A stretch of 19,829 nucleotides of DNA from Candidatus Altarchaeota archaeon (GCA_016931955.1 JAFGDV010000032.1:1-19829); one strand, 5' to 3'. Positions 13,922 to 19,643 are shown, numbered from the stretch's first letter. Numbers and translations: made by a program. The notes: generated from the sequence alone by a model not told the origin.

Positions 13922-15184
13922 ATGAATCCCATACACATAACACTCGTTTACCTGCTATGGATCATCATAACGTTCTTTTTCATGGTGATCTTCCTCACAC
14001 TGTTAAAGAACAGGAAAAGCATATACGAGGAGCCCAAGCCCTCAAATGAACAGCCTACTGTGAGCGTGGTCGTCCCAGCATACAATGAAGAGGGAACGAT
14101 CAGGGAGGCGATCGAATCCCTGACAGCAGTAGACTACCCAAAGGACCTGTATGAGATCATCGTCGTGAACGACGGCTCAACCGACAGGACGGCTGAAATA
14201 GTAAGCGAATACGAAAAAAAACACAACATAGTCTTCATAAACAACAAAGAAAATAGTGGAAAGGCAAGGGCGCTGAACATGGGCATAGGAAAAGCCAAAG
14301 GCGAACTGGTTGCTTGCCTGGATGCTGACACAACAATAAAGCCCGACACGATAAGGAAGGCAATAAAGCACTTTAACGGCGACCGAATCGGGGCAGTGAT
14401 CATTCGAGTGAGCGTCAAGGAGCCGAAAAACTGGCTTGAGAAGATAATAGCCGTAGAATACAACATGGGTTTAGGCTTCTATCTGAAGATATACTCGTTC
14501 CTAAACTGCCTCTATCTGACGCCTGGACAATGCAGCGTGTACAGGAGAAACATGCTGCTAGAGATCGGGGGATTCGACGAGAAAAGCATCGTAGAAGACA
14601 TGGAAATAGCCTACAGGATACAGAAAGCCCACTACAAGATCAAATGCTGCCTGTCCGCGGAAGCCCACACAAAGGTCCCAGACAATGTAAGATCCCTCTA
14701 CCATCAGAGGAAGAGGTGGTATTCTGGCTCCATAATGACGATCATACAACACAGGGACGTGTTCTTCGACCGCGACCTGGGTAATTTCGGGTTATTTTAT
14801 GTGCCAGTAAACTACGCCGGCATAATCATAGGCTTGCTGTTGTTCCTGTCAACGATCCATCTAATGGCCTCACTGATACTGCAAAACATCACCTGCCTAT
14901 CCTTGGTAGACTACGACATCTATGGCGTAGTTCAAGGATCCATCGAGAACCTTCGTATCGATCCACTATCGATAAACATCTTCTATATCTTATGCTCGAC
15001 TCCATTCATAATGAACTCCCTCATGAACTACGCGGGTTTTAAGGTTCTCGGGAAAAGGGTAAGGGAAAACCTGTTCGGGTTCGTTTGCTTCCTGTTCTTC
15101 TTCCTACCCTACCACATATTCTGGCTTATGTGCTTCTACTTCGTCATCTTCAAGAAGGAGGTAAAATGGAGAGAGTCGATGTGA
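13922..15184 (+). CDS. Processive GT2 glycosyltransferase A, membrane-bound
   Basis: The 420-aa protein transfers sugars from nucleotide-sugar donors, probably in a processive manner like hyaluronan, cellulose or poly-GlcNAc synthases. A TM helix (about 9-28) precedes the GT-A domain. Motifs are VVPAYNEE (50-57), NDGSTD (83-88), SGKARALN (112-119), CLDAD (132-136, metal-binding), TPGQCSVYRR (200-209), VEDMEIAYR (224-232, with the ED base) and QRKRW (262-266). Two or more C-terminal membrane segments follow. The start at 13922 gives the expected N-terminal TM. The last 19 bases overlap the start of the thioredoxin-like gene, which has a strong ribosome-binding site inside this gene. The acceptor (lipid or polysaccharide) cannot be read from sequence. 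It is closer to GT2-C at 17766 than to GT2-B. Confidence 0.93.
   Translation: MNPIHITLVYLLWIIITFFFMVIFLTLLKNRKSIYEEPKPSNEQPTVSVVVPAYNEEGTIREAIESLTAVDYPKDLYEIIVVNDGSTDRTAEIVSEYEKKHNIVFINNKENSGKARALNMGIGKAKGELVACLDADTTIKPDTIRKAIKHFNGDRIGAVIIRVSVKEPKNWLEKIIAVEYNMGLGFYLKIYSFLNCLYLTPGQCSVYRRNMLLEIGGFDEKSIVEDMEIAYRIQKAHYKIKCCLSAEAHTKVPDNVRSLYHQRKRWYSGSIMTIIQHRDVFFDRDLGNFGLFYVPVNYAGIIIGLLLFLSTIHLMASLILQNITCLSLVDYDIYGVVQGSIENLRIDPLSINIFYILCSTPFIMNSLMNYAGFKVLGKRVRENLFGFVCFLFFFLPYHIFWLMCFYFVIFKKEVKWRESM
15155..15162 (+). promoter_or_regulatory. Strong Shine-Dalgarno sequence of the thioredoxin-like gene
   Basis: AAGGAGGT lies three bases before the ATG at 15166, within the 3' end of the first GT2 gene. 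It fixes 15166 as the start and indicates independent or coupled initiation inside the GT2 gene. Most other starts in the window lack such a site. Confidence 0.7.
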
Positions 15185-15852
15185 AAACAATGCTGCTGGC
15201 AGCGCTATTCACCGTAATCCTGTTCCTGGGAGTCTACGGCCTAAGCACATTCATAGGGGAGAGAAGAGAACAAGTAGTGACTGAGAAGATGAACGAGATC
15301 ATCGAAGACTTTGAGGAAATAGAGACAACGGTTCGCCTGATAGAATTACTGAGCGAAAAAAACAACACATGCAATATCCTGACGCAGGAGCTGGAATACC
15401 TGGAATCAAAGCTATGGAAATTAGACGGCAGGATAACAGAATACAGGGAGATAACAAAGGACTTCGCAAGCGACGAATTCTATATAAGAGAAAAAAAGAG
15501 GTTGAATAGGAGGGAGATAATATACATGGCGATGCTCGAAAAAGTGAAGAAGATGTGCGACTACGAGCAGATGCTGATACTCTACTTCTACGGGGAATGC
15601 GAGAAAAACAGGGAATGCGATGAACAAGGCTTCGTCTTAAGTTACATAAACCAGAGGGCGGACCCGGAGATAGCAATACTGAGCTTTGATGCAGACCGCA
15701 ATGTCCAGTCGGTTAACTCCCTCATCAGTCTATACAACATAACCGAGTACCCCTGCGTTGTCGTGGACGAGCACACACACTGCGGCCTACACGACAAAGG
15801 GGATATGGAGGAAATACTATGCATGTACAGTAATCTGTCAATATGCACATAA
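15166..15852 (+). CDS. Membrane-anchored thioredoxin-fold protein A with degenerate active site
   Basis: The 228-aa protein has one TM helix (about residues 8-29), a helical or coiled-coil middle (30-130), and a C-terminal thioredoxin-like domain (about 136-205). That domain runs MLILYFYGECEKNRECDEQ, then a helix, an ILSFDAD strand, and YNITEYPCVVVDE with the conserved cis-Pro equivalent (Pro196). The usual CxxC position is replaced by Cys145 and Cys151 (CX5C), so classical disulfide exchange is doubtful. Cys197 follows Pro196, and six further scattered or tail cysteines, counting Cys69, Cys131, Cys206, Cys219 and Cys227, may form structural disulfides. The start comes from the AAGGAGGT site. 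The gene overlaps GT2-A by 19 bases and GT2-B starts after its stop. It is paralogous to the minus-strand protein at 17122. Confidence 0.85.
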   Translation: MERVDVKTMLLAALFTVILFLGVYGLSTFIGERREQVVTEKMNEIIEDFEEIETTVRLIELLSEKNNTCNILTQELEYLESKLWKLDGRITEYREITKDFASDEFYIREKKRLNRREIIYMAMLEKVKKMCDYEQMLILYFYGECEKNRECDEQGFVLSYINQRADPEIAILSFDADRNVQSVNSLISLYNITEYPCVVVDEHTHCGLHDKGDMEEILCMYSNLSICT

Positions 15853-15853
15853 A

Positions 15854-17125
15854 ATGATAGAAACAATCCTGTTCGTGTTTTTCATGGTAATGTCGGTATT
15901 GTATGCATCTTGGATAGTGCTGCTCCTCCTCCCTAGAAAAGAGACTGAGACCACATATACACCAAGCATGTCCGTGATCATCCCAGCGCACAACGAAGGA
16001 GGAAACATAGAAAGCACAATACGCTCCGTTCTGGAAGCAGAATACCCGAATGAGAGGGAAATCATTGTAGTAAATGACGGCTCAACCGACAACACAGATA
16101 ATATTGTGAGAAAAACCTCTGAGATAGATGAGAGGGTAAGGCTCTATACAGTAGAGCACGGCGGAAAAGCGAACGCAATAAATCAGGGAGTGAAGAAGTC
16201 GAAGAACGAATTGGTGGTTGTCTTAGACGCTGACTCACGGCTGGGAGAGGGTGCTCTGACAGAGATAAGCAGGCTGTTTTCTGACAAAGGCGTTGGCGCC
16301 GTCTCTGGAATAATAAGGGCCGCCGAAAACAACAATCCATTGACGTGGTTCCAGGACTTCGAATACGCGCTGTCTTCCGCTTGGAGATACATATGCAACA
16401 AGGTCGGAGGAACATACATACTCCCGGGCTTTGCGGCATTCAGGAGAGACGCCCTATTGAAGATCGGGGGCTTCAGTAGAGACACGTTATCAGAGGACTT
16501 CGAAATCGGTTTAAGGCTGAAGAAGGCAGGTTACAGTCTGTTGATGTCGAAGGCTGTGATGTACACGAAAGTCCCGCAGACCATAAAGGCGCTAGGAAGG
16601 CAGAGGATTAGATGGGGGTGTGGGACAGTACAGGTCATGAAGAAGCACTTCGACATACCGTTCAATGTAAAATACGGCGCAGTCGGCGTATATGGAATAC
16701 CTACGCAGATCTACTGGTTCATCCACGGACTGATATGCATCCCAATAACCCTGTACCAGATATTCGAAGGCTACCTAAGGTATTTCATAGCATACGACAA
16801 CTTCATATCCATGGATGTAGCAAGATACTTCTTCGGATGGTTCTCCGCGTATGGGATGGTAGAATACACCTATAGAACAATAACTGGGGAATACATAATG
16901 AGCATACTGTTCTTCCTGATCGTAGGATCCTTCTGCTTAAACATGATCTACATCATAGCCGCCATTATGAAGATGGCAGAATTCAGGCTAAGATACCTGT
17001 TCGTGGTATTCTTCTTCTTCCCATACTCACTGTTCATCCTTTCACTGTACGTCTTCCCCGCACTACAGGAGCTCTGCTCCAAGAGAGAAAACGTAAACAT
17101 ATGGGAGAAGACCATAGACGGTTAG
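15854..17125 (+). CDS. Processive GT2 glycosyltransferase B, membrane-bound
   Basis: The start at 15854 (MIETILFVFFMVM) supplies the expected N-terminal TM and follows the thioredoxin-like stop by one base. An extension to 15758 lies in another gene's frame and is rejected. The 423-aa protein has NDGSTD (74-79), GGKANAIN (103-110), VLDAD (123-127), LPGFAAFRR (190-198), LSEDFEIGLR (212-221) and QRIRW (250-254), the full processive GT2 set. A long C-terminal region with four or so hydrophobic helices follows. Compared with GT2-A and GT2-C it has G-F-A-A at the LPG loop instead of TPG..S.YR, and is the most divergent of the three, so it may act on another acceptor or sugar. Its stop overlaps the convergent thioredoxin-like stop by four bases. 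Confidence 0.93.
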   Translation: MIETILFVFFMVMSVLYASWIVLLLLPRKETETTYTPSMSVIIPAHNEGGNIESTIRSVLEAEYPNEREIIVVNDGSTDNTDNIVRKTSEIDERVRLYTVEHGGKANAINQGVKKSKNELVVVLDADSRLGEGALTEISRLFSDKGVGAVSGIIRAAENNNPLTWFQDFEYALSSAWRYICNKVGGTYILPGFAAFRRDALLKIGGFSRDTLSEDFEIGLRLKKAGYSLLMSKAVMYTKVPQTIKALGRQRIRWGCGTVQVMKKHFDIPFNVKYGAVGVYGIPTQIYWFIHGLICIPITLYQIFEGYLRYFIAYDNFISMDVARYFFGWFSAYGMVEYTYRTITGEYIMSILFFLIVGSFCLNMIYIIAAIMKMAEFRLRYLFVVFFFFPYSLFILSLYVFPALQELCSKRENVNIWEKTIDG

Positions 17126-17772
17126 CATCGAACATATTCCCCCAAGTCTGTCTTGCTCTGCAGGCCCTCCAGTTTCACTCTCTCATCGATGAGTATCGTT
17201 GGGGTAACGGTTATGTTATACTGTTTCTTGATTATGTCGATTGTCGCAATATCCAGGTCAATAGGAAGTGGAATAAGCATCATACCGCGCCCGCACTTTT
17301 CCTTCAAATCCATGAGAACCGCACTATGCACGTTTTCCTCCATCGACGTATTATAGTGAGAATAAAAGTACACAACGTTGGAGTAGCTGGCATTACAGTT
17401 CCTCTTCAATTCGATGCAGTTAAACCAAAACTGCAGCTTCAACAGAACATAGCGCCTCTTGTCAATGATAAGGGAGGGCGCGAGCTTGTTTACCTTCTCA
17501 TATTCGTCGATGCGCAAGCCTTCAGCGTACACCTTCTCCGAGAACCTCAGATTTTCTTGAATGGCCGGCTCACAGAAGTTAGAAGAATTCCTGAATATCT
17601 GATAGTAGAGGCTCTGCATCCTCGCATCGTTGGAGCTTATCTCCATCCCCTTATATTCCTCCCTGACCTCTTCCACACGAGAGTTATCAATCCACATACC
17701 GATAAAAACACCAATCACGAATATGATCAACGTCAAGACAAAAGCCTTCCAGAAAACATCCTGAGCTACCAT
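17122..17772 (-). CDS. Membrane-anchored thioredoxin-fold protein B, no active-site cysteines
   Basis: This 216-aa protein shares the plan of the protein at 15166. A TM helix (about 9-27) is followed by a charged helical section with a Trp-Ile-Asp-Asn-Ser stretch, then a C-terminal thioredoxin-like domain. That domain runs VVYFYSHYNTSMEENVHSAV (133-152) with no cysteine at the active-site position, followed by LIPLPIDLDIATIDI, and YNITVTPTILIDE (185-197) with Pro191 as the cis-Pro equivalent. Both paralogues share YFY, then YNIT..P...DE. It cannot do CxxC redox chemistry, so a scaffold or protein-contact role is more likely. Its start overlaps the end of GT2-C by 7 bases. The opposite strand carries a long but unsupported open frame. 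Confidence 0.83.
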   Translation of the reverse strand: MVAQDVFWKAFVLTLIIFVIGVFIGMWIDNSRVEEVREEYKGMEISSNDARMQSLYYQIFRNSSNFCEPAIQENLRFSEKVYAEGLRIDEYEKVNKLAPSLIIDKRRYVLLKLQFWFNCIELKRNCNASYSNVVYFYSHYNTSMEENVHSAVLMDLKEKCGRGMMLIPLPIDLDIATIDIIKKQYNITVTPTILIDERVKLEGLQSKTDLGEYVRC

Positions 17773-18983
17773 TTTTGTTTCCTATATACCAAAAGCCTCC
17801 AAAACGAATGGATTAATAATATAGGGAATAAGAAGAGATAGATTGATAAATAGATGAGCATCTCAAAGAAGTTGCTTAGACTGCGTATAGGCTTATCCAT
17901 CGCCTTCAAGCCCACGAAAAGATAAATCAAAGAAGTGAAGAATATGGTCAACCCAAAGACTGTGAACACGTTAGGCAACAGATTCAAAGAAAAATAGTTC
18001 ATTGGATTCACGCCAGCGATCTTGGCATAATACCAGAACTCCATAAAAGAGGAAAACCTCAGTATGAGAAGGTAGAGAAACAAGGCCAAGCCGACTAGGC
18101 TTAAGATTATTGAAACAGAAAAATACGGCACAATAAACAAACCAAAGACACCATATCGCTTACTTAAGAAGGCGTTCTTGTATGCGCTGGCTGTCTGTAT
18201 GCCGCCGATATCCCACCTCAGCCGCTGACGCCACCAGCTCCTGAAAGAGGACGGCGCCGTGGTGTAAACCTTCGCCGGAAGAGCCATCCGAATCCTATAA
18301 TGTGCTTTCTGCAGCCTCCAGGCAATCTCGATGTCCTCGGTCAGAACATTCTCATCAAAGCCACCTAATTTCTCCAAGACGCTCTTCCGGTATAAACTCA
18401 AAGGTCCAGGAGTAACGTAGACACTATTCAAGTAGTCTAAAAGCTTCCTATTCCATGCGATAAGCAGATACTCCATCTCCTGCAGCTTCTGCAGGAAGTT
18501 CCTCGCATCCCTAACAAGGATCGAAGAAGTCACCGCAGCCACCTTAGTATCACTAAAAAAGGTAATCATCTTCAGCAGAGCATCCTCGGCAGGATAAGAG
18601 TCAGCGTCAACGCAGCCAACGACCTCGCCCATCGCCTCAGAAATACCGCGATTAAGTGCGGCCGCCTTCCCCGCGTTATCCTGCCTGATAACCCTAACAC
18701 CCAACTCCTCAGCCCTCTCCGCCGTCTTATCAGTTGAGCCATCATCAACTACTATAACCTCAACACCCACAGGATAAGAGAGATTCTTAACCGCCTTAAT
18801 CGTTTCCCCTATATGTATCTCCTCATTGTATGCTGGAACAATCAAACTCAAGGAAGGAAACACCTCAGGCGAAGCCCCAGCAGACATCCTACCCCAGTTC
18901 TCCACGAAGAGGATCATAAAAAACACTATCAAGTAAAGAGAAATGAATGCAAAACCAAGGAACAAATAATCTATGAGGTACAT
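17766..18983 (-). CDS. Processive GT2 glycosyltransferase C, membrane-bound
   Basis: The 405-aa protein starts at MYLIDYLFLGFAF with a TM helix (about 8-27). Visible motifs are IVPAYNEE (48-55), DDGSTDKT (80-87), AGKAAALNRG (104-113), VDADS (125-129), TPGPLSLYRK (191-200), LTEDIEIAWR (214-223) and QRLRW (253-257). The TPG..S.YR... GGFDEN...EDIEIA.R.QKAHYRI stretch closely tracks GT2-A, so the two are recent-looking paralogues. C-terminal hydrophobic helices lie at about 270-297, 335-355 and 372-395. The thioredoxin-like partner starts inside its last 7 bases. The gene is divergent from the polyprenol kinase. Acceptor and sugar are unknown. Confidence 0.93.
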   Translation of the reverse strand: MYLIDYLFLGFAFISLYLIVFFMILFVENWGRMSAGASPEVFPSLSLIVPAYNEEIHIGETIKAVKNLSYPVGVEVIVVDDGSTDKTAERAEELGVRVIRQDNAGKAAALNRGISEAMGEVVGCVDADSYPAEDALLKMITFFSDTKVAAVTSSILVRDARNFLQKLQEMEYLLIAWNRKLLDYLNSVYVTPGPLSLYRKSVLEKLGGFDENVLTEDIEIAWRLQKAHYRIRMALPAKVYTTAPSSFRSWWRQRLRWDIGGIQTASAYKNAFLSKRYGVFGLFIVPYFSVSIILSLVGLALFLYLLILRFSSFMEFWYYAKIAGVNPMNYFSLNLLPNVFTVFGLTIFFTSLIYLFVGLKAMDKPIRSLSNFFEMLIYLSIYLFLFPILLIHSFWRLLVYRKQKW

Positions 18984-19040: not shown

Positions 19041-19643
19041 ATGCTCAAAGACCGGATCTTCGTCTTGGAGACAAAAAGACAGGCAGTGCATCTGTTTTTA
19101 GGACTCACCATCAGCGTAGCAGTATATCACCTAATGCCAATCGTAGGATACTACATCCTAGTCCCCCTCATGGTGGCGTTAATAGTGCTACTGCAGATGC
19201 AAAAACGATGCCCCAATCTACGGATAGCCAACCACCTAGTATGCCACTTCGAAAGAGACAACGACGCAATAAACTGCCCATTCAAGGGCTCAATCTTCTA
19301 CGGCTTCGGCATAATACCCCCAATCCTATTCCTGCCGCTAAACTACGCATGCGCAGTAATCGCAGTACTCAGCGTAGGAGACTCCACCTCCACCTGGATT
19401 GGAAAATTCTTCGGCAGAATAAGGATAGGACACAAAAGCCTTGAAGGAACCCTAACATTCTTCATATTCAGCAGCCTCGCCGTGTTATTATACGTACAAG
19501 ACTACCAAATAGCGCTAATCTTCGGCCTAGTCGGAGCAATACTAGAACTATTCACGCTCATAGACGACAACCTATTCATCCCCTTAGGATTAACAATACT
19601 ATACCACCTACTGAATATAATTACGCCAAATCTAATAGTTTAA
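19041..19643 (+). CDS. Dolichol/polyprenol or diacylglycerol/archaeol kinase-like membrane protein
   Basis: The 200-aa multi-spanning protein starts at MLKDRIFVLETKRQA. Family marks are CHFERDND (68-75), FKGSIFYGFGIIPP (81-94), LSVGDSTSTWIGKFFG (110-125) and HKSLEGTLTF (131-140). The D-S-T-S and KSLEGT signatures are those of CTP-dependent lipid kinases of the dolichol kinase/SEC59, phytol kinase and CTP:phosphatidate superfamily. Hydrophobic helices cover most of the rest. The substrate could be dolichol, another isoprenoid alcohol, or a diacylglycerol or archaeol-type lipid. Motifs do not separate these. It lies beside three GT2 enzymes, so supply of lipid phosphate for surface glycan synthesis is a reasonable inference. 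The farther 5' in-frame ATG (18813) lies inside GT2-C and is rejected. Confidence 0.85.
   Translation: MLKDRIFVLETKRQAVHLFLGLTISVAVYHLMPIVGYYILVPLMVALIVLLQMQKRCPNLRIANHLVCHFERDNDAINCPFKGSIFYGFGIIPPILFLPLNYACAVIAVLSVGDSTSTWIGKFFGRIRIGHKSLEGTLTFFIFSSLAVLLYVQDYQIALIFGLVGAILELFTLIDDNLFIPLGLTILYHLLNIITPNLIV
19613..19623 (+). promoter_or_regulatory. TATA-like box for the tRNA gene
   Basis: GAATATAATTA sits 38-48 bases before the tRNA 5' end, inside the 3' end of the kinase gene. It would place the transcription start some 20 bases before the mature tRNA. This is an inference from spacing only. Confidence 0.35.

Follow-up and report, generated by a model that had tools for sequence, protein, structure and literature searches.

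A conserved GT2–thioredoxin-fold gene unit in two paralogous copies on an archaeal contig: a candidate two-protein membrane polysaccharide synthase

Gene layout and relatedness of the encoded proteins

The window, i.e. the whole stretch of DNA that was analysed (19,829 nucleotides), is one contig of an archaeal assembly of 1.55 Mb (46 contigs, 92% complete). Its genes for three GT2 proteins and two thioredoxin-fold (Trx) proteins, together with that of a neighbouring membrane protein, are presented in Table 1. An ORF check located the five genes where a preliminary description of this DNA had placed them, along with the overlaps of 19 and 7 bases that it had reported. The 19-base overlap joins GT2-A and TrxA, with the ATG of TrxA at 15166, behind AAGGAGGT; the 7-base overlap of GT2-C and TrxB lies within AAATGGTAG, where the codon of the C-terminal Trp of GT2-C overlaps the start of TrxB. 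GT2-B and TrxB are convergent and overlap by 4 bases. The preliminary description also attached meaning to two GT2–Trx modules facing each other around a third GT2. This is not supported: GT2-B comes third in an operon, GT2-A/TrxA/GT2-B, that is found in nine genomes of the window's order, and among the loci compared the convergent arrangement of both units is seen in the window only.

Table 1. Features of the window, with positions counted from its first nucleotide
Feature	Position	Strand	Length (aa)	Description	Pfam match
GT2-A	13922..15184	+	420	Membrane GT2, HAS/PgaC-like; partner of TrxA	PF00535, 5.9e-39
TrxA	15166..15852	+	228	N-terminal membrane helix, helical stalk, thioredoxin fold; C-x5-C in the active-site region	
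GT2-B	15854..17125	+	423	Third GT2, outside the Trx-linked clade	
TrxB	17122..17772	-	216	Thioredoxin-fold partner of GT2-C; without active-site cysteines	
GT2-C	17766..18983	-	405	Membrane GT2, partner of TrxB; the conserved Trp is the last residue	
Neighbouring membrane protein	19041..19643	+		Possible CTP-dependent polyprenol/lipid kinase	

The Pfam GT2 models match GT2-A, GT2-B and GT2-C. In BLASTP comparisons, GT2-A and GT2-C (33% identity, 3e-73, 224 bits) score higher than GT2-A and GT2-B (2e-51, 167 bits) or GT2-B and GT2-C (3e-50, 164 bits), and TrxA and TrxB share 22% identity over 210 aa (5e-10). Based on these scores, TrxA and TrxB are homologous, and GT2-A and GT2-C are nearer to each other than to GT2-B, as first proposed. 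Orthologues of TrxB, 60–73% identical, are found in four related genomes.

Predicted folds, motifs and cysteines

The AF2 model of GT2-C (pLDDT 87.1) matches the Chlorella virus hyaluronan synthase (Z 30.8, 365 residues, rmsd 2.8) and BcsA (Z 27.7), in both cases with the membrane part included, and its membrane helices are arranged as in these solved synthases (HAS, BcsA). The DxD, ED and QxxRW motifs of the GT-A core are invariant in two GT2 alignments; QxxRW, which is a motif of processive synthases, is present in 108/108 of the GT2s that partner a Trx. According to NCBIfam, PgaC_IcaA is the best model for every GT2 tested (GT2-A: 1.4e-53, below cut-off), and it spans residues 29–404 of GT2-C. 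The cut-off of the PgaC/IcaA equivalog (TIGR03937) is 422.3 bits; GT2-A, GT2-B and GT2-C lie below it, with 182, 153 and 183 bits, respectively.

The top structural match of the GT2-C model is PcManGT (Z 31.4), which is annotated as a mannosyltransferase, and dolichol-phosphate mannose synthase appears as a sequence match to the GT2. Together with the GT-C neighbours described below, these matches would fit a GT2 acting as a single-step transferase (a polyprenyl-phosphate sugar or glycolipid synthase) that feeds donor to GT-C, with Trx as a regulator. We regard this as quite improbable, given that every partner GT2 contains QxxRW, that the membrane parts of both HAS and BcsA are matched and that PgaC_IcaA is the best family model over nearly all of GT2-C.

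The AF2 model of TrxA (pLDDT 85.3) contains a long N-terminal helix, the start of which is the membrane anchor; two further helices form a stalk with it, and the thioredoxin fold follows. In fold searches, the stalk matches helical bundles and the fold domain matches thioredoxins (Z about 9–10). In the family alignment, a hydrophobic helix and Cys69 are each present in 107/108 Trx proteins, Cys131 in 108/108 and the cis-Pro196 in 106/106 ungapped rows; the fold and this proline place the family in the thioredoxin-like superfamily. Cys69 and Cys131 are positioned at adjoining ends of the antiparallel stalk helices of the TrxA model, so a disulfide between them is likely, and this would suit an extracytoplasmic site. 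Most of the Trx family lies below the Pfam cut-offs. For PF13192 (Thioredoxin_3; gathering cut-off 24.8 bits), TrxB scores 18.9 bits, which is below it, and the family member of locus L077 27.2 bits; TrxA matches no Pfam thioredoxin model. In NCBIfam, TrxA and TrxB have no match, and none above cut-off was found for four family members tested.

Concerning the active-site cysteines, 78 of the 108 Trx proteins contain both (70 as CXXC and eight more widely spaced), one contains a single cysteine and 29 contain none. TrxA has C-x5-C and TrxB has neither cysteine; a redox-active CXXC is absent from both. The pair is retained or dropped as a unit: the tree shows about six changes, of which well-supported branches force at least three. 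The frequent CXXC or wider-spaced pair, and the thioredoxin fold itself, are also what would be seen in a general envelope thiol oxidoreductase that is merely co-transcribed with the GT2 and acts on other secreted proteins. Such a role is very improbable: the pair is missing in 29/108 proteins, with at least three forced changes, while the link to the GT2 is retained; the GT2 and Trx trees are congruent; and strong GT2 matches in genomes without Trx are nearly absent (see below).

Conservation, inheritance and distribution of the gene pair

For 95 of the 118 archaeal Trx genes with fetched regions, the gene directly upstream, on the same strand, is a GT2. The spacing of the two is most often an overlap of 7 bases (38 cases) and next most often 10 bases (10 cases). 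Of the remaining genes, most have a GT2 no more than three genes away, lie at a contig end or are separated from the GT2 by a GT-C gene. In the bacterial Paceibacterota phylum, a GT2 lies directly upstream of 14/14 full-length Trx genes. Both adjacencies of the window are far beyond chance; the repeated two-gene unit suggested from the window is kept in many genomes, and coincidence, which would have been the reading had the pairing not recurred, is ruled out. The C-terminal Trp is found in 51 of 56 Trx-linked GT2s (the rest being gaps) and often provides the overlapping Trx start codon; it is absent from GT2-B and the outgroups. A Shine–Dalgarno-like site precedes the Trx start in 20/64 cases vs 5.6% of internal ATGs, an enrichment that is far from universal.

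The two genes also occur together when genomes are compared. Trx is present in 61/63 genomes with a strong GT2 match (E<=1e-90). The two exceptions, G013 and G197, have a strong GT2 (E 2e-131 and 4e-101) and a negative Trx search; both assemblies are fragmented and one is 3.8 Mb in size. In genomes G045 and G162, GT2 and Trx are both present though far apart. When the GT2 profile was run against named genomes, at least six of the 80 loci among the matches listed had Trx directly downstream; these belong to Micrarchaeota, Woesearchaeota, Paceibacterota, Nomurabacteria, Kaiserbacteria and one unassigned bacterium, i.e. DPANN archaea, CPR bacteria and the unassigned one. No Trx lies directly downstream at the other listed loci; one of them, from Nanohaloarchaea, ends at the contig end, and the Trx of that genome is on another contig.

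A tree of 89 GT2s was built by a quick method with SH-aLRT support. All 56 Trx-linked GT2s sampled, plus two with a GT-C gene between GT2 and Trx, form one clade (SH-aLRT 100), which includes GT2-A and GT2-C and excludes GT2-B, in agreement with the grouping proposed at the outset. GT2-A falls within a seven-member subclade of the window's order and GT2-C in a separate subclade with four close orthologues, while GT2-B groups with its orthologues in a clade of its own with 12 members. As judged from these different subclades and the separate orthologues in other genomes, GT2-A and GT2-C are old paralogues, each with its own Trx, and the two units of the window would lie side by side by happenstance. 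The same two observations rule out a local event as the module duplication that the preliminary description had inferred, and the separate clade of GT2-B rules out its being part of the repeat. At two Woesearchaeota loci (L254 and L268), two GT2 genes that fall outside the Trx-linked clade follow one another, with no Trx beside them.

Over 108 pairs, the GT2 and Trx distances are correlated with r 0.79 (shuffled maximum 0.128), a value to which shared species history contributes. In this comparison, every Trx of the two-unit genomes follows its own GT2, and the bacterial pairs adjoin largely the same archaeal pairs in the GT2 and Trx trees. Despite the shared species history, these two observations argue for inheritance of GT2 and Trx as a cassette.

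Single-sequence searches detected Trx in 33 and 31 of 61 related genomes, and the family profile in 138/394 archaeal genomes (E<=1e-4), the weakest matches being short and covering the thioredoxin domain only. Based on the phylum groups of the search database itself, each named here by one member, Trx is found in 169/193 genomes (88%) of the phylum of the Woesearchaeota locus, in 80/196 of that of the Micrarchaeota locus, in 23/29 of the window's own phylum and, at full length, in 14/379 of the Paceibacterota phylum; it is found in 0/300 genomes of the phylum of Nitrosarchaeum. Trx was also not found in the four named genomes searched (haloarchaeal, thaumarchaeal, Thermococci and Brockarchaeota). 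Some groups of tiny archaea have the GT2–Trx unit in the majority of their genomes, and a few tiny bacteria also carry it; the unit apparently has no name. The literature searched contains no characterised system with a GT2–thioredoxin pairing, as had been anticipated, and the pair is not mentioned in the main text of papers on DPANN protein families, Undinarchaeota, Micrarchaeota gene transfer and archaeal dark matter.

Proposed function and comparison with known systems

Since GT2 and Trx are nearly always paired, they probably make a surface sugar chain jointly; joint function had been suggested from the window, and co-inheritance and co-occurrence now back it. On balance, we consider it rather probable that the two paralogous GT2–Trx pairs of the window are copies of a conserved unit whose two genes together encode a membrane polysaccharide synthase, with the thioredoxin-fold protein as its accessory subunit. 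The GT2 would polymerise the sugar at the cytoplasmic side, and the chain would probably be passed through its own membrane helices, as in hyaluronan synthase or PgaC. Trx, which the overlapping gene encodes and a single N-terminal helix anchors, would assemble with the synthase, its stalk and its thioredoxin domain being at the cell exterior close to where the chain emerges; this location is based on the one hydrophobic helix, on the invariant pair of cysteines and on analogy. It could then serve assembly, gating or hand-on of the chain, a role comparable to that of PgaD/IcaD or BcsB. The active-site cysteine pair kept in most lineages may form a redox-sensitive contact; for a Trx that has neither cysteine, such as TrxB, the role would be structural only. 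Two points speak against a polysaccharide synthase: PcManGT is an equally good structural match, and GT-C genes are found in the neighbourhood.

Several known systems resemble the unit in part. PgaC depends on PgaD and IcaA on IcaD, two membrane partners that are non-homologous to each other (PMC7112194). Like these poly-beta-1,6-GlcNAc synthases, the unit combines a membrane GT2 of similar size with a separate small membrane partner; however, the GT2s of the window reach only 153–183 bits against the cut-off of 422, and the partner consists of a one-helix anchor, a stalk and a thioredoxin fold and, having no NCBIfam match, falls outside the PgaD/IcaD family. Class I hyaluronan synthases (Chlorella virus HAS, Xenopus HAS1) share QxxRW and the predicted fold over nearly the whole chain, but HAS is a single polypeptide chain, whereas the synthase proposed here has two proteins. 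BcsA/BcsB are similar in the GT2 core with membrane helices (Z 27.7 and lower) and in the membrane-anchored extracytoplasmic partner; the GT2s of the window, however, have about half the length of BcsA, the alignment stops before its C-terminal region, and the partner is thioredoxin-like, unlike BcsB. The new part would be the kind of accessory subunit, the synthase itself being of a known kind.

A membrane-anchored thioredoxin fold also accompanies a glycosyltransferase in the eukaryotic oligosaccharyltransferase (Ost3/Ost6, TUSC3/MAGT1), on the non-cytoplasmic side, as suggested for the window. The partner there is STT3 instead of a GT2, and the membrane topology differs. No Ost3/Ost6 chain is among the sequence and fold matches listed for Trx, a listing that does not exclude homology. 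The thioredoxin domain of Ost3/6 faces the STT3 active site (PMC8191290), which is a precedent for a protein-glycosylation helper: the GT2 and GT-C neighbours would build lipid-linked sugars or transfer them to surface proteins, while Trx holds the acceptors, as do Ost3/Ost6 in the eukaryotic enzyme.

The neighbouring genes bear on this possibility. GT-C genes of the PMT_2 type are located within three genes of 48/118 Trx genes, and in G045 and G162 Trx is directly behind a GT-C gene instead of a GT2, which makes a larger glycosylation system a possible partner. In 14 genomes belonging to the window's phylum, homologues of the membrane protein at 19041–19643 are found near the GT2–Trx module, a probable association. 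The protein has no Pfam or NCBIfam match; its SVGDSTSTWIGKFFGR...KSLEGT stretch is, we presume, reminiscent of CTP-dependent dolichol or lipid kinases, and the protein is possibly a CTP-dependent polyprenol/lipid kinase. Such a kinase and the active-site cysteines kept in 78/108 Trx proteins, across most lineages, would also suit glycosylation. We nevertheless think a glycosylation helper unlikely: the tightest and most conserved partner is a HAS/PgaC-like GT2, not an oligosaccharyltransferase; no GT-C is near 70/118 Trx genes; the cysteines required for mixed disulfides are lost in 29/108; and one N-terminal helix with a stalk is a topology unlike that of Ost3/6. At L078:7617-9038 and L142:8428-9846, from two genomes of one genus, Trx directly follows a PMT_2-type GT-C gene and the GT2 lies elsewhere in the genome.

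Little is known about the envelope sugars of DPANN archaea and CPR bacteria. Returning to the two-protein synthase with a thioredoxin-fold subunit, we suggest tentatively, and with some doubt, that it makes a surface glycan of most DPANN archaea, as a hallmark of these organisms, and that Paceibacterota-type bacteria acquired it from them, with a possible use in attachment or in building the envelope. If so, the unit would be common to two radiations of tiny, mostly host-attached cells, pointing to gene transfer between them and to a new type of synthase subunit. The occurrence of Trx in 88% of the genomes of one DPANN phylum and in some CPR, set against 0/300 in the Nitrosarchaeum phylum, provides a concrete gene pair for study.

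Trx proteins also vary in length. The Micrarchaeota protein at L216:6128-7207 has an extra ~130 aa at the C-terminus. Long forms of about 700 aa (L083:10740-11879, L086:6389-8515 and L188:2371-4500) contain an additional stretch of ~400–500 aa without a Pfam match, and in L083 a stretch related to this extension is encoded on its own, two genes further downstream. Open frames of 700–737 aa recur in the Woesearchaeota phylum.
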